A stretch of 22,526 nucleotides of DNA from the IMG/VR virus record IMGVR_UViG_3300027721_000081, positions 1-22,526 of that record, one strand, 5' to 3'. The translations under genes and the position numbers were made by a program. Shown piece by piece: positions 2,135-20,610 of this stretch (position 1 is its first letter; every line of letters begins with the position of its first letter). A model generated the notes under the pieces. The model was not told the DNA's origin and searched no databases. It worked only from the letters and a program-made list of their open reading frames with translations. The DNA is from a virus.

Positions 2135-2146
2135 AAATATAATTTT

Positions 2147-2177
2147 TAACAAATATAATACTTTTTACAATATAGGC
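2147..2177 (+). promoter_or_regulatory. Late-type start signal, copy 1 (TAACAA-N13-TACAATATAGGC)
   Basis: TACAATATAGGC at 2166-2177 directly abuts the ATG of the protease gene. It differs in its final base only from the three other copies in this window (4747, 18533, 20599). TAACAA lies 13 bases upstream at 2147-2152. TACAAT resembles a -10 element placed so that transcription would begin at or near the ATG. See findings. Confidence 0.6.
2150..2157 (-). promoter_or_regulatory. Candidate -7 box (TATATTTG) of the reverse-strand pair
   Basis: Reading the minus strand, TATATTTG is an exact match to the Bacteroidota -7 pattern TAnnTTTG and lies 15 bases upstream of the ATG at 2134. No convincing TTG/TTTG sits about 19 bases further upstream, so the -33 half is missing or degenerate. 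In so AT-rich a gap a chance match is possible. The box overlaps the upstream AACA element of the plus-strand late-type signal, so the two directions could interfere with each other. Confidence 0.35.
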
Positions 2178-3149
2178 ATGGACAGACCAGTTTACAAGAT
2201 CACTATTGATGAGGCCTACTCAGATGGGGAGGACTTAGGTATGGAGATGATTGCCTTCACCAACAAGCCTGCTATCAAGGTTAAAGGTATGGCATTCAAT
2301 TCTCATGTTGCTCCTATGACATTCAGTGACTCAGTTAAGATGCGTATTGTTGCACCTGCCATGATACCAATGAACATCTATAGACAAGATGAGGATGGTG
2401 AAGAGTATGACGTTCAATTTACTGCAGAGGTGATTGAGCAGATACACGCTAAGTTTATGCTTAACCTTAGCAATAAGAACATCTTTAACCTTGAGCACGA
2501 TCAAGATGAGAAAGTGCCAGCATACATCCTTGAGGCTTGGATAGTAGACAGCCCAGAGACTGACAAAGCATTCACAACATACGGCATTGAAGTACCTAAG
2601 GGCACTCTAATGTTGACAAGCCAGATCACTGACAGAGAATACTATGATGCACTGGTTGAGTCTGGTCAAGTAGGTTACTCTATTGAGGGATTCTTAGGCA
2701 TGAAATTATCGGAACAATTAAAATTAAATACAATGAAGTTACCAGATGGAGAACACATGATTGAGGATAAAATCTACGTTGTTAAAGACGGAGAAGTTAT
2801 TGAGATCAAAGAAATGCCTACAGAGATGGAAGCAGAAATGGCTGCTGACCCAGTAGCAGAAGAGGAAGCTGAAGTTGCAGCAGAGACCCCTGAGGCAGAG
2901 GAAGAGGATGCAGCAGCAGACTCAGAGGTTGCAATGGCTATTGACCCTGCAGTTGATACAGAGGCTATCCTTGCTATCGTAGCACCAATGCTTGAGGAAC
3001 ACATGAATGCAGTGATTAGAATGATTGCTGACTTAAAGAACCAACTTGAGGAGAGTCTTGCTGTTGAGACTGAAACAGAAACAGAGAGTGTGGAGTTGAC
3101 TTCACATGAGAAATTTAAAGAATTTGTAAAATTTTCAAAAACCAAATAA
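2178..3149 (+). CDS. Prohead protease, XkdF/peptidase S78_2-like, with fused scaffold-like C-terminus
   Basis: 323 residues from ATG 2178; the frame extends further upstream, but this ATG is chosen because TACAATATAGGC abuts it and the protein homology begins here. Residues 1 to about 190 resemble the XkdF-type serine protease of phage capsid maturation: NLEHDQD places a likely catalytic His at residue 107, and VGYSIEGF places a likely catalytic Ser at 168. Residues about 205-290 are an Ala/Glu-rich acidic region, followed by a helical segment (MLEEHMNAVIRMIADLKNQL) and a Lys-rich end. That layout suits a protease fused to an internal scaffold which is cleaved on maturation. The major capsid gene follows after one base, with no separate scaffold gene between. 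Confidence 0.8.
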   Translation: MDRPVYKITIDEAYSDGEDLGMEMIAFTNKPAIKVKGMAFNSHVAPMTFSDSVKMRIVAPAMIPMNIYRQDEDGEEYDVQFTAEVIEQIHAKFMLNLSNKNIFNLEHDQDEKVPAYILEAWIVDSPETDKAFTTYGIEVPKGTLMLTSQITDREYYDALVESGQVGYSIEGFLGMKLSEQLKLNTMKLPDGEHMIEDKIYVVKDGEVIEIKEMPTEMEAEMAADPVAEEEAEVAAETPEAEEEDAAADSEVAMAIDPAVDTEAILAIVAPMLEEHMNAVIRMIADLKNQLEESLAVETETETESVELTSHEKFKEFVKFSKTK

Positions 3150-3150
3150 C

Positions 3151-4083
3151 ATGAACCGTAATTTAAAATTCAATTTAGATATTGAAACAAACGCATTATT
3201 AGCTGCGAACCCAGAGGAGTTTTATTCAAAGGCTTATTTATCAAGCCCTGATATTCCTAACAACTTCCGTACTTTACCAGGTGTGAAGTCAAAAACAAAA
3301 TTGGCCAATGTAGTATTTGGACAGGTGTTGCAACCTTACAACTGTGCTTTCTCACCAAGTACTGACTTGTTAGATGCTATTGATATCGATGTATGTTCTT
3401 TGTCTGCAATGGCTGAGCTTTGTCAGTTCGATTTAGAGCAATCATTCTTAGCTTTGCAAATGACAAAAGGATCTAATGGTGACTTCACTGTTGCATCTTT
3501 CATGGCATACTACTGGAATGAGATGGCTTTGACTATTGGTCAAGACTTAGAGGTGTTGAGATGGCAAGGTAATGATGCATCTGAGGATCCATTGTTATCT
3601 TTGTGTACTGGATACTTATTCAAGATGTTCTATGATACAGATGTTATAGGTTTATATGATGGAGCTGTAACTACTGCAAATGTATTGACAGTTATGGAGT
3701 CTGTACTTAACGCTGCACCTGCATCTATAGTAAGACGTAAAGCTGACTTAAGATTCTACGTTTCAACAAACGTAGCTAACGCATATGAGTTGAAAGCAGC
3801 ATCTGGTAACACGCAGACATTCGTTACTTTACCATTAGGATTAACTTTCTTAGGTATCAATGTAGTGACTTGTGAAGGTATGCCAGATAACACTATTGTG
3901 TTGACATTGAAAAATAACCTTATCTATGCATTTGATGCAGAGGGAGATTCAAAAGCATTGAAAGCTATCAACTTATCTGACTCAGTTGCTGAGCCTGTAT
4001 TGAGAACTCGTGCGAACATGAAGGCTGGTTTCTTCTATACGAACCCTACTGAGATAGTTTTGTATAACGCATTCTACATCTAA
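3151..4083 (+). CDS. Major capsid protein, HK97-fold candidate
   Basis: 310 residues, starting one base after the protease stop. The position right after a prohead protease with scaffold-like tail, the length, and the strong terminator after it all fit a major capsid protein. Visible segments include a charged N-terminal arm (NRNLKFNLDIETNALLAANP), then SPSTDLLDAIDIDVCSLSAM, and a C-terminal part ending NPTEIVLYNAFYI. I recall closely similar capsid proteins in Bacteroidota phages. Codon choice looks more uniform than in the neighbours (many GCA, TTA, ATC/ATT), as expected of a highly expressed gene. The HK97 fold is inferred and not directly visible. Confidence 0.8.
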   Translation: MNRNLKFNLDIETNALLAANPEEFYSKAYLSSPDIPNNFRTLPGVKSKTKLANVVFGQVLQPYNCAFSPSTDLLDAIDIDVCSLSAMAELCQFDLEQSFLALQMTKGSNGDFTVASFMAYYWNEMALTIGQDLEVLRWQGNDASEDPLLSLCTGYLFKMFYDTDVIGLYDGAVTTANVLTVMESVLNAAPASIVRRKADLRFYVSTNVANAYELKAASGNTQTFVTLPLGLTFLGINVVTCEGMPDNTIVLTLKNNLIYAFDAEGDSKALKAINLSDSVAEPVLRTRANMKAGFFYTNPTEIVLYNAFYI

Positions 4084-4090
4084 ATATAAA

Positions 4091-4118
4091 GGGAGGTAGT
4101 AAGTGCCTCCCTATTTTT
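4091..4118 (+). terminator. Intrinsic terminator after the major capsid gene
   Basis: GGGAGG (4091-4096) pairs with CCTCCC (4106-4111) around a 9-base loop and is followed by TATTTTT. It lies 7 bases after the capsid stop, so the protease-capsid pair ends as its own transcript. Confidence 0.85.
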
Positions 4119-4139: not shown

Positions 4140-4679
4140 ATGAGCTGTGAAGCACTAATAGCCATTGAAAAAAGCTGTGATAATAATAGCGGTGGCATCA
4201 AAAGAATTTATATCAATCTACAGGATAATGTAGACATGGATACATTAGCAGTGGTTGACCCTGTAGGTACACCTGCTGAGCAGTATGCTATTGGCACACT
4301 TGACTTAGTAGTTGCTGCTGACCCATTCACTGAGTTTGAGTTCAGACGTAATACATCTGGATACACAGAGGAGAGCAATATTGACTTAATCAATGGCTCA
4401 AGTTTTGTGACTCAGACTATCAACCTAATGTTCCACAGAAGAGAGGCAGCGAAGTCTAATGCAATCAAGGTACTTGGTTCTGGACAGCAGTACTTATCTG
4501 CAATAGTTGAGGATCAAAACGGCATCCTATGGTTCTTCCCATACTTGCAGTTGACTGCATCTGGAGAAGGCTCAGGTACAGCTCGTGCAGATGGTTCTAA
4601 ATATTCCGTTACACTTTTAGCGGAGAATGACCAGTTGGCCTATACAATGACTACTAATGTGTTGACTAGTTTACTATAA
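4140..4679 (+). CDS. Major tail tube protein candidate
   Basis: 179 residues. It stands alone between two intrinsic terminators, directly after the capsid gene, the pattern expected of a very abundant virion protein. The predicted content is mostly beta-strand, with phrases such as DNVDMDTLAVVDPVG, FVTQTINLMFHRREAAKSN and SKYSVTLLAENDQLAYTM typical of tail tube proteins of Bacteroidota phages as I recall them. The leader AATATACCTATG resembles, but does not match, the TACAATATAGGTATG start signal of neighbouring genes. It could instead be a head decoration protein; the tail tube assignment rests on position, length and strand-rich character. Confidence 0.65.
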   Translation: MSCEALIAIEKSCDNNSGGIKRIYINLQDNVDMDTLAVVDPVGTPAEQYAIGTLDLVVAADPFTEFEFRRNTSGYTEESNIDLINGSSFVTQTINLMFHRREAAKSNAIKVLGSGQQYLSAIVEDQNGILWFFPYLQLTASGEGSGTARADGSKYSVTLLAENDQLAYTMTTNVLTSLL

Positions 4680-4698: not shown

Positions 4699-4727
4699 AG
4701 CCTCACTACTTAGTGGGGCTTTTTTTT
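4699..4727 (+). terminator. Intrinsic terminator after the tail tube candidate
   Basis: A ten-base-pair stem, AGCCTCACTA (4699-4708) with TAGTGGGGCT (4711-4720), has a two-base apical gap in the DNA (the innermost pair probably opens to give a four-base loop) and one G-T pair. It is followed by eight T residues. The end of the T run flows into TAACAA, the upstream element of the next start signal. Confidence 0.85.
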
Positions 4728-4758
4728 AACAATTATTTTTTAGTAGTACAATATAGGT
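4727..4758 (+). promoter_or_regulatory. Late-type start signal, copy 2 (TAACAA-N14-TACAATATAGGT)
   Basis: TACAATATAGGT at 4747-4758 directly abuts the ATG at 4759, with TAACAA at 4727-4732. Because a strong terminator lies just upstream, a new transcript has to begin here, which supports a promoter reading of the motif. Confidence 0.65.
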
Positions 4759-5094
4759 ATGATATATCTTGAGAAAGACACAGTCAACTTGTTTGTGCTG
4801 ACCTTAACAGAGGTTACAACCATCCCAGACGCTTACTATTTATTTGAGTTTGAGGATGAGTTCAACACTGCACCAGACCCTATATACTGGGAAGGTACAG
4901 ATACTTCTGTATATCCCTCAAGATTTAACCTATTCACACTTGATGAGCCAACAGATATTGACTTCGTAAAGGGTCAGTATAGATACAAGGTGTATCAGAG
5001 CTCAGAACCCACAAACGACCCTACTGGCTTGACCATGATAGAAGAGGGCAGGATGGTAGTGGCAGGTGTAACACTTAACTCAATATATGACTAA
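4759..5094 (+). CDS. Small virion-region protein, probable beta-sandwich
   Basis: 111 residues, ATG directly behind the TACAATATAGGT box. The protein begins MIYLEKDTVNLFVLTLTEV and continues with a strand-rich pattern (YYLFEFEDEF, SRFNLFTLDE, GQYRYKVYQS), like a family of small proteins I recall near the head-tail genes of Bacteroidota phages. It leads the operon that continues with the portal through a TAATG overlap. The fold and a virion role are inferred from context; no enzymatic motif is present. It could be a decoration, neck or stopper protein. Confidence 0.65.
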   Translation: MIYLEKDTVNLFVLTLTEVTTIPDAYYLFEFEDEFNTAPDPIYWEGTDTSVYPSRFNLFTLDEPTDIDFVKGQYRYKVYQSSEPTNDPTGLTMIEEGRMVVAGVTLNSIYD

Positions 5095-6380
5095 TGGCAT
5101 GGTATAGTAGATTCGTAGGCAGTAAGCCTAAAGCAACAGAAGTAGTGGAAGGATATCAATCTTTTAGCACTCCATTTGGTAACGTAGGCAACGCCAACTT
5201 ATCACTGCCTTATGTCAATGGTAGATATCAGATAGCTGGATATATACCATTTGGCCAGGATAATATGTTCCCTGAGCTACTTAATCAGCTATACTACACA
5301 TCACCTTTACATGGTGCAATAGTGGACTTCAAGACCAATGCAACAGTCGGAGGAGGATATACTCTTGAGACTGCTAAGATGTCCAATGAGGATAAGCTCA
5401 AGCTATATACCTTTGAGAAAAAAATGAAGCTCAACAAGACCAGCAAGGCTATAGCTCAACAGTTGATAGTACACCACAGAGTTTACTTTAAACTTTGCTA
5501 TAATAAGAAAGGTGAGCTGTACAAGATAGAGAATGTATCACCTGAGAAGGTGAGAGTGGCAAGAGATAAGATAACATACTTCTTGTGCGACGACTGGTCA
5601 GCTCGTATTGATATAGTATCTATCAAGAAAGCACATCCTGCTAACACTGACCTTGAGCAGTTATATGTTTATGAGATAATGACCTTGGGCCAGGAGTGGT
5701 ATTCTTTACCACAGTATACATCTGCTTTGAACTTTGCCTTCCTATCTGGTGAGCTATCATATTTTGCTAAGAGTAACATCCAAAACTCAGTCTTTCCTTC
5801 CTTTGCTATGATGTTCCCTAAGAGACCACAGTCAGAAGAGGAGAAACACATGATTAAGCAAACCATTGATAGGTTGAAAGGTGCAGCGAATGCTGGTAAG
5901 GCTGTTGCATTCTTTGCTAACTCAGCTGACCAACTACCAAAGATAGAGGCATTGCCTACCAATAGCAATGATAAGCTCTTCCATGAAGCCTCTGCACTCA
6001 ATACTGAGCAGATATGTTTCTCACACACTATAGATCCTATCTTGATGGGAGTACGTACTACAGGTTCTCTTGGCGGTGGAGCTGATATCAAGCAGGCATA
6101 CGTTGTATTTGAGAAAAATGTAGTAATGCCATTGAGAGACCAGGTTGAGGAGATAGTGAACGAGCTATTGGCACTTGCTAAGATACCAGGTGTGTACATG
6201 ATTAACAACTTCCAGATAATCAATGAGACTATTGTCGAGATAGATGACAATGTATCTAAGATATCTGATATTATTAATTCTGTTAATCCTGTACTGGCTG
6301 CTAAAATAATTGAATCTATGACTCAAAATGAGTTAAGGGAGTTGATACACTTACAACCTATTGAAACACCTGCACCATGA
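5094..6380 (+). CDS. Portal protein
   Basis: 428 residues. Length, position and motifs fit the dodecameric portal through which DNA enters the head. Near the N-terminus are IPFGQDNMFPELLNQLYYTSPLHGAIVD split over about residues 51-78, followed by VHHRVYFKLCYNKKGEL and ENVSPEKVRVARD, typical of portal wing strands. The region around 290-330 (FHEASALNTEQICFSHTIDP then MGVRTTGSLGGGADIKQAY) matches the pattern of portal stem and clip sequences in Bacteroidota phages. A helical C-terminus follows. The start overlaps the previous stop as TAATG and its own stop overlaps the next start as ATGA-type coupling (4 bases). It is separated from terminase, which lies about 13 kb downstream. Confidence 0.8.
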   Translation: MAWYSRFVGSKPKATEVVEGYQSFSTPFGNVGNANLSLPYVNGRYQIAGYIPFGQDNMFPELLNQLYYTSPLHGAIVDFKTNATVGGGYTLETAKMSNEDKLKLYTFEKKMKLNKTSKAIAQQLIVHHRVYFKLCYNKKGELYKIENVSPEKVRVARDKITYFLCDDWSARIDIVSIKKAHPANTDLEQLYVYEIMTLGQEWYSLPQYTSALNFAFLSGELSYFAKSNIQNSVFPSFAMMFPKRPQSEEEKHMIKQTIDRLKGAANAGKAVAFFANSADQLPKIEALPTNSNDKLFHEASALNTEQICFSHTIDPILMGVRTTGSLGGGADIKQAYVVFEKNVVMPLRDQVEEIVNELLALAKIPGVYMINNFQIINETIVEIDDNVSKISDIINSVNPVLAAKIIESMTQNELRELIHLQPIETPAP

Positions 6381-8441: not shown

Positions 8442-8473
8442 TTTGCACGAATGAAAAAAGTTATCTACATTTG
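8442..8473 (+). promoter_or_regulatory. Host-type (Bacteroidota) early promoter
   Basis: TTTG at 8442-8445 and TACATTTG at 8466-8473 match the TTTG / TAnnTTTG pattern with a 20-base spacer. The gene at 8497 begins 23 bases after the -7 box. This is the probable promoter for the small-gene run 8497-10278. Confidence 0.7.
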
Positions 8474-9569: not shown

Positions 9570-9634
9570 CAAGAACAATGACAACCTTAGTACTGGCTTA
9601 TAAAGCTATGTATTATACAACAAGATATTCATGA
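9566..9634 (+). CDS. 22-residue microprotein bridging two coupled genes
   Basis: ATG at 9566 overlaps the preceding TGA, and its own TGA (9632-9634) overlaps the ATG of the HTH gene at 9631. The product would be MTRTMTTLVLAYKAMYYTTR plus two residues. Double coupling suggests that ribosomes pass through it; the peptide itself may be dispensable and serve only to carry ribosomes to the HTH gene. Confidence 0.35.
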   Translation: MTRTMTTLVLAYKAMYYTTRYS

Positions 9635-9822: not shown

Positions 9823-9908
9823 AAGAGCTCGCAATGATAACTTGGGCAGCTGCCATGATAATGATTCTAATCAGACTAATAAACAGATACAATGGACGAA
9901 ATAATTGA
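9819..9908 (+). CDS. 29-residue single-span membrane microprotein
   Basis: ATG 9819 overlaps the HTH gene's stop, and the TGA at 9906-9908 lies inside the next gene, which begins at 9892. The sequence has a hydrophobic helix (AMITWAAAMIMILIRLI) followed by a short basic end. The 17-base overlap with the next gene and the coupling upstream support translation; function is unknown. Confidence 0.4.
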   Translation: MKELAMITWAAAMIMILIRLINRYNGRNN

Positions 9909-10341: not shown

Positions 10342-10350
10342 GTGTATTTT

Positions 10351-10595
10351 TGCAAGGGTAGAATATTTTGTAACTAATTGATAATCAAATGTTGCAAGGG
10401 TAGCAAGGGTAAACAGACATTCTTTTGAAACTTCAAATACAAATAATAAAATATTTTATTTCTAAAATTAAATATAATGTATCTCATATATAATTAAATT
10501 TTTTACCCTTGTATCCCTTGCAACCCAGTGTGGCATTGACTTTCTACCCTTGCTGTACCCTTGCAAAAATCATTTTTACCCTTGCACCCCTTGCA
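10351..10595 (+). repeat. GCAAGGGT iteron cluster around an AT-rich core; candidate replication origin
   Basis: Nine copies of a 10-base unit, TGCAAGGGTA or a one- to three-base variant. Three are in direct orientation: 10351-10360, 10393-10402, 10402-10411. Six are in inverted orientation: 10504-10513, 10513-10522, 10545-10554, 10556-10565, 10577-10586, 10586-10595. Neighbouring copies are 9 or 11 bases apart, about one helical turn. Between the two groups lie about 92 bases of very AT-rich DNA (10412-10503) with a perfect 16-base palindrome, AATAAAATATTTTATT, at 10445-10460. Iterons plus an AT-rich unwinding region beside a DnaA-like gene and a primase-helicase gene are what an origin looks like. 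An operator cluster is the main alternative. Confidence 0.7.
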
Positions 10596-10620
10596 GATAT
10601 GTTTTTTATTGTTATCTTTG
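10591..10620 (+). promoter_or_regulatory. Host-type promoter of the primase operon
   Basis: TTG at 10591-10593 and TATCTTTG at 10613-10620 are separated by exactly 19 bases, a full match to the Bacteroidota TTG-N19-TAnnTTTG promoter. The -33 TTG is part of the last iteron (10586-10595). The primase ATG lies 94 bases downstream of the -7 box, leaving an untranslated leader of about 85-90 bases. Confidence 0.85.
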
Positions 10621-16442: not shown

Positions 16443-16762
16443 TGTCAGAATTAACAATGAAAGGAGCTATCAAGCTCATCAACCCAGTCAAAGTCATTAG
16501 TGACAAGTTCTCAGTGAGAGAGTTTGTTATCACTACAGCAGACAAGTACCCTCAAGAGGTAATCTTCCAGACAGTCAATGACAAGATGGATATCATAGCA
16601 CCATATGGACAGGGTCAAGAGGTCACAGTGTCATTCAATGTAAGAGGCAGAGAGTACAACGGTAAGTACTACAACACACTTGATGCATGGAAGGTGCAAG
16701 GTGAGGCAGCTGCTCCAAGTCAACAACCAATAGAGGAGACAGATGACTTTCTTCCGTTCTAA
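16442..16762 (+). CDS. Single-stranded DNA-binding protein candidate (DUF3127-like, acidic SSB-type tail)
   Basis: 106 residues, starting at a TAATG overlap. The body (MKGAIKLINPVKVISDKFSV, REFVITTADKYPQEVIFQTV and VSFNVRGREYNGKYYNTLDA) has the OB-fold-like layout of the DUF3127 family, which I recall standing in for SSB in Bacteroidota phages. It ends ETDDFLPF, very similar to the DDDIPF-type tail by which bacterial SSBs recruit partner proteins. Together with ERF and the exonuclease it makes a complete recombination set. ssDNA binding is strongly suggested by the tail and context, not by a recognised catalytic motif. Confidence 0.75.
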   Translation: MSELTMKGAIKLINPVKVISDKFSVREFVITTADKYPQEVIFQTVNDKMDIIAPYGQGQEVTVSFNVRGREYNGKYYNTLDAWKVQGEAAAPSQQPIEETDDFLPF

Positions 16763-17625: not shown

Positions 17626-17859
17626 ATGATAATCACATACCTAACTCCCTTAGTAGTCTCATGGTGGTTTACCCACTTCGAGCCTATCCAGGACTACATA
17701 GACAATACACTGATACTACCAGACTGGCTACACACCGCACTCGGTTGCTGGAAGTGTCTCTCCTTCTGGTCAACCTTAGCCTACTCACAATCATTCACTG
17801 TGGCCTGTGCCACATCACTCACAGCGGTATGCTTGAACAAACTGATATACAACTCATAG
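17626..17859 (+). CDS. Small membrane protein with CWKC motif
   Basis: 77 residues. The N-terminus (MIITYLTPLVVSWWFTHFEP) is hydrophobic and can form a membrane helix, and a second span lies near the C-terminus (QSFTVACATSLTAVCLNKLI). Between them is DWLHTALGCWKCLSFWSTLA with a Cys-Trp-Lys-Cys pair reminiscent of small membrane proteins I recall in Bacteroidota phages just before the terminase region. Disulfide or metal binding is possible. The next gene begins 31 bases before its stop. Confidence 0.6.
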   Translation: MIITYLTPLVVSWWFTHFEPIQDYIDNTLILPDWLHTALGCWKCLSFWSTLAYSQSFTVACATSLTAVCLNKLIYNS

Positions 17860-18032
17860 AGACCATTCTCAACCTACCAGAGGAGCAGACAATGACAAAG
17901 AGCTCACTGGTTAAGCTCAGAGCAGTCAAGCAACAAGTGACAGGCATACGTGACAAGGAGTGCTTCTGCTCTGGAGTACGTAGGAAGGTATGGTATAAAG
18001 ACTTCCTTACATGGTATGAAGCTAATACTTGA
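17829..18032 (+). CDS. Small conserved phage protein with CFCS motif
   Basis: 67 residues from ATG 17829; an in-frame ATG upstream at 17661 would run through the membrane protein gene and looks like a shadow. The sequence TDIQLIETILNLPEEQ, then LVKLRAVKQQVTGIRDKECF, then CSGVRRKVWYKDFLTWYEAN resembles a family I recall in Bacteroidota phages next to a sigma-like gene, with the ECFCSxVRRKxWYKDFxxWY ending strongly conserved. Function unknown. It overlaps the following gene by 17 bases. Confidence 0.65.
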   Translation: MLEQTDIQLIETILNLPEEQTMTKSSLVKLRAVKQQVTGIRDKECFCSGVRRKVWYKDFLTWYEANT

Positions 18033-18558
18033 CCAATATATCAGCCGTAACTATGAAGAGGTGCTCAAATATACTAAGCACTTCCTCAAGCGACTCAATA
18101 TACCAAGCTCAATAGATGCAGATGCAGTCATCAACAACGCTTACTTACACTGTGTGAAGGTCAACATACCAGATATGACCCAAGACAAGGCAAAGAGCTA
18201 CCTGCTCAACACGATCAAGTATGAGCTCATATGGACTCAAGGCTCCAGGACTAAGAAAGATGACATCTACAGATCACAAGAGTACCTAACAGATTGCATT
18301 GATGACCCCACAGAGATAGAGCACAAGATAAGACTTGAGAATGACCACAACTTTAAGAAGGCAATGGTTGAGATATACAGGAACAACTTGGACGATAGGA
18401 TAAAAAGGATTATATTTGAAGCATACTATGACAAAGGTCACTCAACTCAGACTGCACTGGCTCAGTACTTTGACATCAACAGTACATCTGCATACTTTCT
18501 GATACGAGAAATAAAACAAAATATAAAAGAAATACAATATAGGTATGAAGAGTGTTGA
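18016..18558 (+). CDS. Sigma-70-like factor candidate (regions 2 and 4 pattern)
   Basis: 180 residues from ATG 18016. The N-terminal helical part (YEEVLKYTKHFLKRLNIPSS, then DADAVINNAYLHCVKVNIPD, then KSYLLNTIKYELI) follows a sigma region 2 pattern: a membership signal like 'DadDVvndvflkv' followed by an arm leading to a long helix. The C-terminal part (RIKRIIFEAYYDKGHSTQTA then LAQYFDINSTSAYFLIREIK) fits the helix-turn-helix of region 4. Diverged phage sigma factors of this size occur in Bacteroidota phages. It overlaps the preceding gene, and its final codons contain the TACAATATAGGT box of the next gene, directly before the packaging genes. A role in late transcription is inference. Confidence 0.6.
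   Translation: MKLILDQYISRNYEEVLKYTKHFLKRLNIPSSIDADAVINNAYLHCVKVNIPDMTQDKAKSYLLNTIKYELIWTQGSRTKKDDIYRSQEYLTDCIDDPTEIEHKIRLENDHNFKKAMVEIYRNNLDDRIKRIIFEAYYDKGHSTQTALAQYFDINSTSAYFLIREIKQNIKEIQYRYEEC
18514..18544 (+). promoter_or_regulatory. Late-type start signal, copy 3 (AAACAA-N13-TACAATATAGGT)
   Basis: TACAATATAGGT at 18533-18544 abuts the ATG at 18545, with AAACAA at 18514-18519. The whole element lies inside the end of the sigma-like gene. The motif is therefore conserved even where it has to encode protein. Confidence 0.65.
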
Positions 18559-18709: not shown

Positions 18710-18965
18710 AGACGAATTTATTGGCAAGACTATCAAAGTCTACAATAAGCACACAGGAACAAAGGCAGTATCTATTGCCAGCCTTGACATGAGTAAAGTA
18801 GAGTATTATATCACAACAGGACTTAAGCACATCTTTGAGGAGGTAGTCACTACGACTGCACCTGAGGTTGTTGTGATAGAGTATAAGGCTGTAGATGGTC
18901 CAATACCAGAGTCAACTGCTAAGCCTAAGAAAAAACGTAAACCAAAGGCGGATGCCAAAGCATAA
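18693..18965 (+). CDS. Conserved phage protein beside TerS, basic C-terminal tail
   Basis: 90 residues. The first half, NYKIKDEFIGKTIKVYNKHT then SLDMSKVEYYITTGLKHIFE, follows a pattern I recall from small proteins next to the terminase small subunit in Bacteroidota phages. The C-terminus is low complexity and strongly basic (PKKKRKPKADAKA) and may bind DNA or simply be a disordered tail. It overlaps the TerS start by 14 bases. No function is assigned; a connector or packaging accessory is possible. Confidence 0.6.
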   Translation: MNYKIKDEFIGKTIKVYNKHTGTKAVSIASLDMSKVEYYITTGLKHIFEEVVTTTAPEVVVIEYKAVDGPIPESTAKPKKKRKPKADAKA

Positions 18966-19365
18966 ACACATAGAGACCCCAGAGGCAATGTGGGAGCTAT
19001 TCGAGAAGTACAAAGAATGGACTAAGAACAACCCACGTTATCAATACTCACTTTCTAATAAGACAGGTGAGGCAACTGCTGTGCCTTTGGAGAGACCAAT
19101 GACTCAAGTAGGTTTTAGATGCTTTGCTGCTGATATGAATAGTTCAGTGCAGGATTACTTTGCTAATACGGATGGGAGATATTCAGCGTATACGACAATC
19201 TGCACACGCATAGAGGAAGCAATCAGACAAGATCAGATAGAGGGAGGGATGACAGGCCAGTATAATGCCTCCATCACTCAGCGACTAAACAACCTAACTG
19301 AGCGAGTTGATACAACCACTCAAGGTCAGGCTATAAATGATATTAAGGTTACTATTATTAAATAG
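18952..19365 (+). CDS. Terminase small subunit
   Basis: 137 residues from ATG 18952 (MPKHKHIETPEAMWELFEKY). An in-frame ATG at 18895 lies inside the previous gene and is not preferred. The start pattern, the phrase TGEATAVPLERPMTQVGFRC and the later YTTICTRIEEAIRQDQIEGG followed by MTGQYNASITQRLNN match the TerS family I recall in Bacteroidota phages. It would recognise phage DNA for packaging and hand it to TerL, encoded 64 bases downstream. The HTH and oligomerisation parts cannot be separated by eye. Confidence 0.8.
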   Translation: MPKHKHIETPEAMWELFEKYKEWTKNNPRYQYSLSNKTGEATAVPLERPMTQVGFRCFAADMNSSVQDYFANTDGRYSAYTTICTRIEEAIRQDQIEGGMTGQYNASITQRLNNLTERVDTTTQGQAINDIKVTIIK

Positions 19366-19429: not shown

Positions 19430-20581
19430 ATGGAGATAAAGAGCACAGTAATATTCGAGAGGAACTTTGAAGCTCTCAACAGTCCAGACAATAGATTCAT
19501 TATCAATGAGGGCGGCTCAAGGTCATCTAAGACTTACAGCCTATGCCAGCTGATAATAGTCTACTGCCTACAGAATAGAGGCAAGGTGGTGAGCATCATA
19601 CGGAAGACCTTCCCTGCACTCAGAGCTACAGTGATGAGAGACTTCCTTGAAATCATGAAGGACTTAGATATCTACGAGGTAAGCAAGCACAATAAGTCTG
19701 AGCACATCTATACCTTTGACAATGGCTCTATCGTGGAGTTCTTCTCAGTGGATGATGAGCAGAAGATACGAGGTAGGAAGAGAGACCTTGCCTGGTGCAA
19801 TGAAGCCAATGAGCTATACTACGATGACTTCACTCAGCTCAACATGAGAACAGAGGGTAAGCTCATCTTTGACTACAACCCATCAGAAAGCAACTCATGG
19901 CTGTATGAACTACCAGTTGAGGAGAGCATCCTCATCAAGTCAACGTACAAGGACAACCCGTTCCTACCTGAGAGCATCAAGAGACAGATAGAGGATTTGA
20001 AGAGGACAGATGAGGCACAGTATCAGATATACGCCTTGGGAGAGAAAGCCATCTCTAAGAGCAACATCTACAGTAACTGGTCATTTGTCAAGCATAGGCC
20101 TGCTAAGTTCACATCCTTCGTATATGGCCTTGACTTCGGATACAACCACCCTACTGCACTGATACGGGTGTACTGGCGTGACAAGGACATCTACATTGAG
20201 CCAGTCATCTATGAGAGCTACTTGACCACCACTGACCTCATCGCTCGTATGGATCAGTTAGGTATAGACAAGAGTGTCAACATCCTGGCTGACTACTCAA
20301 GACCAGAGACCATAGCAGAGATAGATAGGGCAGGGTATTACATTGAGAATGCCAACAAGGTAGTCAAGAAAGGGATAGATAACATCAAGACATTTGGTGT
20401 GATCTGTGAGGAGCACCCTGCACTCAAGAAGGAGTATGAAAACTATAAGTGGAAAAAGATAGGTGACCAGATAACAGATGAACCAGTCAAGCTGTGGGAT
20501 GATGCTATGGATGCCATCCGATATGCAGCGACCTACATCAAGCAGGAGTACTACACTGATGACAGTTACTTAGCCTTCTAA
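19430..20581 (+). CDS. terL: Terminase large subunit (packaging ATPase-nuclease)
   Basis: 383 residues from ATG 19430; a TTG at 19421 is in frame but not needed. The Walker A variant GGSRSSKT lies at 28-35 and a Walker B-like segment DLAWCNEANE at 119-128 with catalytic Glu125. The nuclease domain has YGLDFGYNHPTA (Asp235), ILADYS (Asp288) and DDAMDAIRYA (Asp357 or Asp361). This is the Terminase_3 (PBSX/XtmB-like) layout with ATPase followed by RNase H-like nuclease. The enzyme pumps DNA into the prohead through the portal and cuts it. The upstream gap holds a hairpin, and the downstream gene has its own TACAATATAGGT box. Confidence 0.93.
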   Translation: MEIKSTVIFERNFEALNSPDNRFIINEGGSRSSKTYSLCQLIIVYCLQNRGKVVSIIRKTFPALRATVMRDFLEIMKDLDIYEVSKHNKSEHIYTFDNGSIVEFFSVDDEQKIRGRKRDLAWCNEANELYYDDFTQLNMRTEGKLIFDYNPSESNSWLYELPVEESILIKSTYKDNPFLPESIKRQIEDLKRTDEAQYQIYALGEKAISKSNIYSNWSFVKHRPAKFTSFVYGLDFGYNHPTALIRVYWRDKDIYIEPVIYESYLTTTDLIARMDQLGIDKSVNILADYSRPETIAEIDRAGYYIENANKVVKKGIDNIKTFGVICEEHPALKKEYENYKWKKIGDQITDEPVKLWDDAMDAIRYAATYIKQEYYTDDSYLAF

Positions 20582-20610
20582 CAGGATTCGCTTCAAGATA
20601 CAATATAGGT
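20579..20610 (+). promoter_or_regulatory. Late-type start signal, copy 4 (TAACAG-N14-TACAATATAGGT)
   Basis: TACAATATAGGT at 20599-20610 abuts the ATG at 20611. TAACAG lies at 20579-20584 and includes the TerL stop codon. Confidence 0.6.

Follow-up and report, generated by a model that had tools for sequence, protein, structure and literature searches.

The window analysed here comprises 22,526 bases, which make up an entire IMG/VR virus record and are a fragment of a genome. It includes a previously unannotated open reading frame on the plus strand, which starts with an ATG at 18016, ends with a stop codon at 18558 and encodes 180 amino acids, exactly as reported in the original prediction, where the product was taken for a sigma-like factor. 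A longer frame starting from a GTG at 17950 exists, but the alignment of the family starts with the ATG at 18016, M1, K2, L5 and D6 of the protein being invariant in 33 sequences. The features of the window are listed in Table 1.

Table 1. Predicted genes, promoters and hairpin in the 22,526-base window.
Feature	Position	Strand	Remarks
Putative late promoter Pd	2143..2177	+	TTTTTAAC; spacer one base shorter; box TACAATATAGGC at 2166-2177; ATG at 2178; in a divergent gap
Putative host-type -7 box TATATTTG	2150..2157	-	Would serve the divergent minus-strand gene; flanked by the two Pd elements
Gene d, XkdF-like protease	2178..3149	+	Peptidase_S78_2, E 2.9e-8; behind Pd, before the 310-aa gene (3151-4083)
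Terminator-like hairpin	4699..4728	+	9 pairs and a T run; ahead of Pe; conserved in relatives
Putative late promoter Pe	4723..4758	+	TTTTTAAC; box at 4747-4758; ATG at 4759; terminator-like hairpin before it
Gene e, 111 aa	4759..5094	+	Behind Pe, before the 428-aa gene (5094-6380)
Putative host-type early promoter	8442..8473	+	TTTG ... TACATTTG at 8466-8473; TTG 23 bases upstream
Putative host-type early promoter	10591..10620	+	TTG 22 bases upstream ... TATCTTTG at 10613-10620; before a VapE-type helicase/primase gene
Sigma-like gene, 180 aa	18016..18558	+	Helical 2-76, region-2-like; helical ~98-179 with helix-turn-helix, region-4-like
Putative late promoter Pa	18510..18544	+	Within the 3'-terminal part of the sigma-like gene; -35-like AATAAAAC is weak; box TACAATATAGGT at 18533-18544; ATG at 18545
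Gene a, small hydrophobic protein, 54 aa	18545..18709	+	First gene behind Pa
Terminase small subunit	18952..19365	+	phrog_606, E 2.5e-13; Pfam GP3_package; without a box of its own
Terminase large subunit (TerL)	19430..20581	+	Pfam Terminase_3, E 4e-31; without a box of its own
Putative late promoter Pb	20576..20610	+	TTCTAA at 20576-20581 overlaps the TerL stop codon; box at 20599-20610; ATG at 20611
Gene b, 498 aa	20611..22107	+	Behind Pb

The sequence TACAATATAGGT, referred to here as the box, has three exact copies (4747, 18533 and 20599), and a fourth copy, at 2166, differs from it by a single mismatch. At this tolerance the four sites compare with 0.21 expected and none of 100 shuffles reaches four, whereas with two mismatches there are eight sites against 3.6 expected, and hence only the four closer copies are regarded as meaningful. 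Every one of the four abuts an ATG (2178, 4759, 18545 and 20611), a point missed by the original prediction. As had been stated there, the last codons of the sigma-like gene hold the third copy of the box, which falls in codons 173 to 177 and runs up to the ATG of the following gene. The four boxes head the gene for the head-protease-like product, the gene before a 428-aa gene that probably encodes the portal protein, a small gene before the terminase and the gene after TerL, in agreement with the earlier observation that the box precedes structural genes and the packaging region. A promoter matrix scored the four sites at 22.9-31.8, as compared with 10.6 for the next site in the window, 9.6 on the other strand and at most 17.6 in shuffles; the training data of this matrix included the four sites themselves. 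The -35 part of Pa is poor.

A second conserved terminator-like hairpin was found at 4090-4112, after the 310-aa gene, and is perhaps a partial terminator. The gene that follows it, at 4140, has no box, so that a terminator alone is no proof of a new transcription start. A sigma70-type promoter scanner applied to the first half of the window returned 34 promoters, against 34.1 in shuffles, and its output was therefore not used.

AlphaFold2 models of the 180-aa protein were built from alignments of 20 and 33 sequences and had pLDDT values of 75 and 78, respectively, with a pTM of only 0.41-0.43. They place a disordered loop at residues ~77-98, between the two helical domains. Sigma factors ranked first when either model was compared with the PDB by Foldseek, and with the second model each of the first 28 rows is a sigma factor or a chain from a complex that contains one; for neither model was there a PDB row under E 0.001. 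The top row was 9n9q_C (E 1.2e-3), from an entry entitled RNA-guided transcription complex, chain C of which we take to be the sigma factor of that complex. Residues 105-180 matched sigma-H of Fusobacterium (3mzy) with a Z score of 8.6 over 73 residues at 2.3 A, and a Z score of 7.8 was obtained with region 4 of E. coli sigmaE on -35 DNA (2h27; 69 residues, 2.8 A). Residues 2-83 matched the N-terminal (sigma2) part of RpoE in 5uxx with a Z score of 6.8 over 75 residues at 3.3 A. As the structure tool itself warns that middling Z scores are easily reached by helical models, the region-2 half is the weaker half of the fold match. Among viral models (BFVD), six Foldseek rows were found at E<=0.001, two of which bear the name sigma-70. 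The models thus support a fold like that of sigma factors composed of region 2 and region 4. At the level of predicted fold only, the protein has the ECF-type (group 4) architecture, with the two regions joined by a linker and neither region 1.1 nor region 3.

The earlier description of a region 2-like part and a region 4-like helix-turn-helix is therefore upheld by the predicted fold but has no counterpart at the sequence level, and in the sigma-70 profile search suggested at that time no sigma region was matched. The window protein alone gave no useful Pfam or PHROG family match, the 33 family members gave no sigma match in Pfam and PHROGs, the Sigma70_r2 profile matched in 0 of 10 records, and a sequence search of the PDB matched no sigma factor. 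Comparison with nine ECF-type sigmas by hhalign gave a probability of 0.2%, within the range of shuffled controls. Given this lack of significant profile similarity to Sigma70_r2/r4, the protein is called sigma-like by its fold and is not filed in the family. The best regulator-type match was to the PHROG 'HTH DNA binding protein' (4 of the 33 members, E 0.00043), and no convincing named regulator family was found in Pfam or PHROGs. In tblastn searches of 50,697 phage records, phiEco32 included, the window protein had no match, and neither it nor one protein each from clades II and III (see below) matched gp36 or gp47.

Such results could also be expected if the box is a late promoter used by the host holoenzyme with the aid of the 180-aa protein, which would then be a helix-turn-helix activator and not a sigma factor. 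ArpU and RinA of Gram-positive phages are small helix-turn-helix late regulators encoded just before the terminase, where the sigma-like gene is also located, the likeness being one of general description. ArpU and RinA are not known to have a region-2-like domain. An activator would agree with the absence of a sequence-level sigma match and with the top structural scores falling in the region-4 half. However, the whole chain was aligned with whole sigma factors by Foldseek, the match of residues 2-83 to the sigma2 part of 5uxx extends to the other half, and the box has -35 and -10 parts of its own that replace, rather than flank, the TAnnTTTG element of the host. An activator is therefore considered unlikely, and the protein is treated below as a candidate sigma factor.

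A pattern search of IMG/VR yielded 140 relatives, 80 of which were kept. Searches with more distant queries brought in further clades, which share ~52% (clade II), 44-48% (clade III), 46-47% (clade IV) and 40% (a single locus, L324) identity with the window protein. A search of 84,980 bacterial and archaeal genomes produced 221 pattern-matching stretches, none of them encoding a relative of the sigma-like protein. Among 80 loci selected by TerL, 15 with <3.5 kb of upstream DNA were left out, and the sigma-like gene was found in all of the remaining 65 (>=3.5 kb). Its location, following the early genes, is conserved. It is present in 12 of 12 genomes compared, while other early DNA-binding genes are found in 5, 5 and 3 of the 12. 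The HTH_11 gene at 9631, the DnaA-C-like gene at 9892 and the HTH gene at 16743 were considered as sources of the late factor and rejected, each being absent from some box-bearing genomes. A small open reading frame (17661-18032) that ends 17 bases inside the sigma-like gene and encodes a C-F-C cysteine motif near its end has a homologue in all 12 genomes, and its product could be a partner or a cofactor for the sigma-like protein.

The codons of the sigma-like gene were compared in 82 distinct clade I genes at 108 positions where the amino acid is conserved in >95%, M and W being omitted. Only ten positions use a single codon throughout: the five codons of the box (173-177, ATA CAA TAT AGG TAT; 82/82 genes each), two at the -35 part (165 and 167) and three elsewhere. 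Up to residue 170, by comparison, codon entropy averages 0.89 bit. As judged by this comparison, the copy of the box inside the sigma-like gene is under selection at the DNA level, where it is fixed.

All of 20 related records carry the box in 3-6 copies each, nearly all on one strand, and the sites sort into five gene classes, a to e. In the clade I loci compared at this stage, the box has 84 distinct sites (<=1 mismatch), with ATG following at 68 of them, ATA at 11 and other sequence at 5. Alignment of 27 representatives of the five classes revealed a second element, TTnTAA, at positions -35 to -30 (T in 22, T in 23, any base, T in 23, A in 24 and A in 27 of 27), the conservation of which was matched by 1 of 1000 class-wise circular shifts. 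Counted from the ATG, the clade I layout thus comprises TTnTAA, a 17-base spacer, TACAAT at -12 to -7 and the end of the box adjoining the A of the ATG; in class d, TTnTAA lies one base closer to the box. In the 12 genomes, which represent three clades, the core AATAT[AT][AG] is present at 42 of 49 orthologous starts, in 41 of these 42 sites it follows AAC or AAT by 17-20 bases, and it is separated from the start codon by 2 (32 sites), 3 (2), 4 (6) or 6 (2) bases. All seven starts without the core are class b starts in clade III; there, gene c has replaced gene b behind TerL and is the one with the promoter. In class b of clade IV, the start codon is 14 bases beyond the core. Class e genes start with ATG or GTG, and the hairpin with T run conserved ahead of them is a supporting point only. 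Class d sites occupy a short gap flanked by divergent genes. Since the plus and minus genes are both present in 12 of 12 genomes, the plus gene needs a start of its own there.

An unbiased search for 8-mers before ATG recovered the box from the window and from L208, which belongs to record G011, but no comparable motif from nine clade II-III loci; the boxes of these clades were missed because their positions vary, and were revealed by orthologue-guided alignment. A strict promoter pattern proved too strict, matching none of 12 records. A two-part regular expression gave a strand bias of 45 to 10, with 33 of the 45 at named orthologous starts, figures that are descriptive only as the expression was drawn from such sites. 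In four clade III genomes (L277/L278, L287/L288, L281/L282 and L283/L284, in records G026, G028, G029 and G030, respectively), an extra two-part site was observed ~1.7 kb upstream of class d, before a gene whose product starts with MPD.

Bacteroidota ribosomes make little use of Shine-Dalgarno sequences, and the box, a fixed sequence of 12 bases ahead of the ATG that abuts it exactly in 68 of the 84 clade I sites, might be seen as an element for translation initiation. This is hard to reconcile with a second element at a fixed upstream distance, with core-to-start distances of 2-14 bases between clades, or with the ATA clade, where ATA stands in place of the ATG in 27 contexts and the box is kept. 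In the single genome of that clade that was read, gene a is missing, and 15 bases separate the box from the start of the gene that follows. Furthermore, F. johnsoniae is described as preferring A at -3 (PMC6847099), where the box has G. A role in translation therefore appears very improbable, and the comparative data support the box being a late promoter and not a ribosome signal. The putative late promoters constitute a phage-wide element, unlike host promoters, ahead of late genes.

Published promoters of the Bacteroidota primary sigma factor are given as TTTG / TAnnTTTG (PMC7366714, PMC6847099, PMC9723704). The two early promoters of the window and, apparently, that of the minus-strand gene at 2157 are of this type, whereas the late box breaks the TTTG half: at the place of the -7 box, TACAATAT keeps three of the six positions of TAnnTTTG, and the box is not assigned to the primary sigma factor by this comparison. 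TAnnTTTG occurs 44 times in the window (22 expected), and combined with TTG 22-25 bases upstream it is also found at 10345 and 15240, on the early side, and inside genes. Thus, host-type promoters do precede the early regions at 8442-8473 and 10591-10620 as originally described, but their restriction to early regions is approximate, given the copies inside genes and on the minus strand at 2157. The latter apparently serves two adjacent minus-strand genes (880-2152) that lie inside the late region and are conserved in every one of the 12 genomes. The complement of this minus-strand box, CAAATATA, can be seen at the class d sites of these genomes. At the divergent site (2134-2178), TATATTTG is flanked by the two elements of Pd, so that binding of the late holoenzyme and of the host holoenzyme could be mutually exclusive. 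From the early promoter type and the leading TerL matches, which are to phages of Bacteroides, Parabacteroides and Flavobacterium, all at <60% identity, the phage probably infects Bacteroidota.

Words resembling ACCCTTGCA (<=1 mismatch) occur 14 times in the window against 5.1 expected. Nine of them, three on the minus and six on the plus strand, are clustered at 10351-10595, just before the VapE-type gene, and are possible origin iterons or an operator.

The box varies between clades. It is TACAATATAGGT, with TACAAT, in clade I, TTTAATATAGTT, TATAATATAGTT or AATAATATAGTT in clade II, and of TTTAAT, ATTAAT or AATAAT form in clade III; clades II and III mostly have TTTAAT, TATAAT, ATTAAT or AATAAT in place of TACAAT. 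The boxes of one genome change together, and the variants largely track the clade of the sigma-like protein. The class a boxes of clade II (TTCAATATAGTT) and of clade IV (TACAATATAGTT, again with TACAAT) are exceptions, and the split between box and clade is therefore not absolute. The five clades amount to few independent events, in which clade and host are confounded, as hosts may differ by clade.

These variants bear on whether the box could be read by the host polymerase with its own primary or an alternative sigma factor, with the phage protein doing something else. In F. psychrophilum, the -7 box of sigmaA occupies the place of TACAATAT at -12 to -5, and the cited account also describes several ECF sigmas in this species (PMC9723704). 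The two sequences have T-12, A-11 and T-7 in common. Yet the conserved -7 positions differ at three of six in clade I and at four of six in TTTAATAT, and the boxes within a genome change together, largely with the sigma clade. Recognition by a host sigma factor is on these grounds regarded as decidedly improbable. From the co-conservation and co-variation of gene and box, we infer that the sigma-like protein reads the box. The earlier proposal of a phage sigma factor that reads the late box and acts in an early/late switch is supported in this form, with recognition of the box as its inferred link.

Since TACAAT is located at -12 to -7 when the A of the ATG is +1, late mRNAs would start at the start codon or within a few bases of it. 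As transcripts begun any further downstream would no longer include the ATG, the leader in clade I would be at most a few bases. The promoter geometry therefore points to late mRNAs that are leaderless or nearly so. Such mRNAs are rare in Bacteroidota according to the figures given for three species: 5.5% of mRNAs are leaderless in F. psychrophilum (PMC9723704), 3.7% of 5' UTRs are <10 nt in B. thetaiotaomicron (PMC7366714) and 87% of leaders are >10 nt in F. johnsoniae (PMC6847099).

Taken together, it is likely that the host polymerase with the sigma-like factor transcribes five late units with leaderless or near-leaderless mRNAs. Host-type TAnnTTTG promoters would lead to production of the small factor, with its region 2 plus region 4 (ECF) architecture, at the end of the early phase. 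The factor would join the host core RNA polymerase and guide it to the late promoters, of which each genome would have five: four lie in the window and the fifth, of class c, in the part of the genome missing from the record. In clade I, the late promoter would consist of TTnTAA (-35), 16-17 bases, TACAATATAGGT and the ATG. As the sigma-like gene contains the first late promoter in its 3'-terminal part, late transcription would begin where the early region ends. With about even confidence, we regard the system as a self-contained early/late switch of a large uncultured phage group, which would combine an undetectably divergent sigma factor, a +1 at the start codon, a leaderless late programme among hosts with few leaderless mRNAs, co-evolution of factor and promoter in at least four clades, a first late promoter embedded in the final codons of the sigma gene, and a class d late promoter that overlaps, and possibly displaces, a host-type promoter on the opposite strand.

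The closest known counterparts are the sigma factors of phages 7-11 and phiEco32, and the present system would work like that of 7-11 without being a member. SaPh711_gp47 of phage 7-11 is a proven late sigma factor that has 15% identity to phiEco32 gp36 and directs the host core to the bipartite late promoters GTAAtg-(16)-aCTA (PMC8948821). A very divergent phage-encoded sigma-like factor, here recognised by predicted fold, and bipartite promoters ahead of late genes are shared with 7-11. In contrast, the host of 7-11 is Salmonella, its promoter sequence is different, and the main text of the report has no mention of leaderless messages (PMC8948821). The phage sigma factor gp36 of phiEco32 is associated with middle/late promoters whose short AT-rich element, tAATGTAtA, lies 6-8 bases before the start and which control structural genes (PMC4331800, PMC4281155). 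This promoter has a single element, which is tied to the lack of region 4 homology (PMC8948821), unlike the two-part promoter described here. In phage AR9, the late promoter AACA-(6N)-TA/G is common to many late genes and is likewise phage-specific, but AR9 encodes two multisubunit polymerases and its reported 5' UTRs, of 26-491 nt, are not leaderless (PMC5312081), as opposed to the near-leaderless messages predicted here.

No papers on late promoters or sigma factors of Bacteroidetes or Flavobacterium phages were found in the open-access literature. Late regulation in such phages is hardly studied, and the present finding provides a testable pair of factor and promoter, from which late units could be predicted simply in many metagenomic phages. 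The pair may also be of use for orthogonal expression in Bacteroidota, independent of TAnnTTTG. If transcripts start at the AUG, this would also be an unusual example of an entirely leaderless late programme, and it would test the uptake of leaderless messages by ribosomes that use Shine-Dalgarno sequences little.

A further observation concerns genome ends. Record G011 (L208 and L209; 29,204 bases) has a box of class a at both ends, ~29.08 kb apart, which suggests a complete, circularly permuted genome of ~29 kb.
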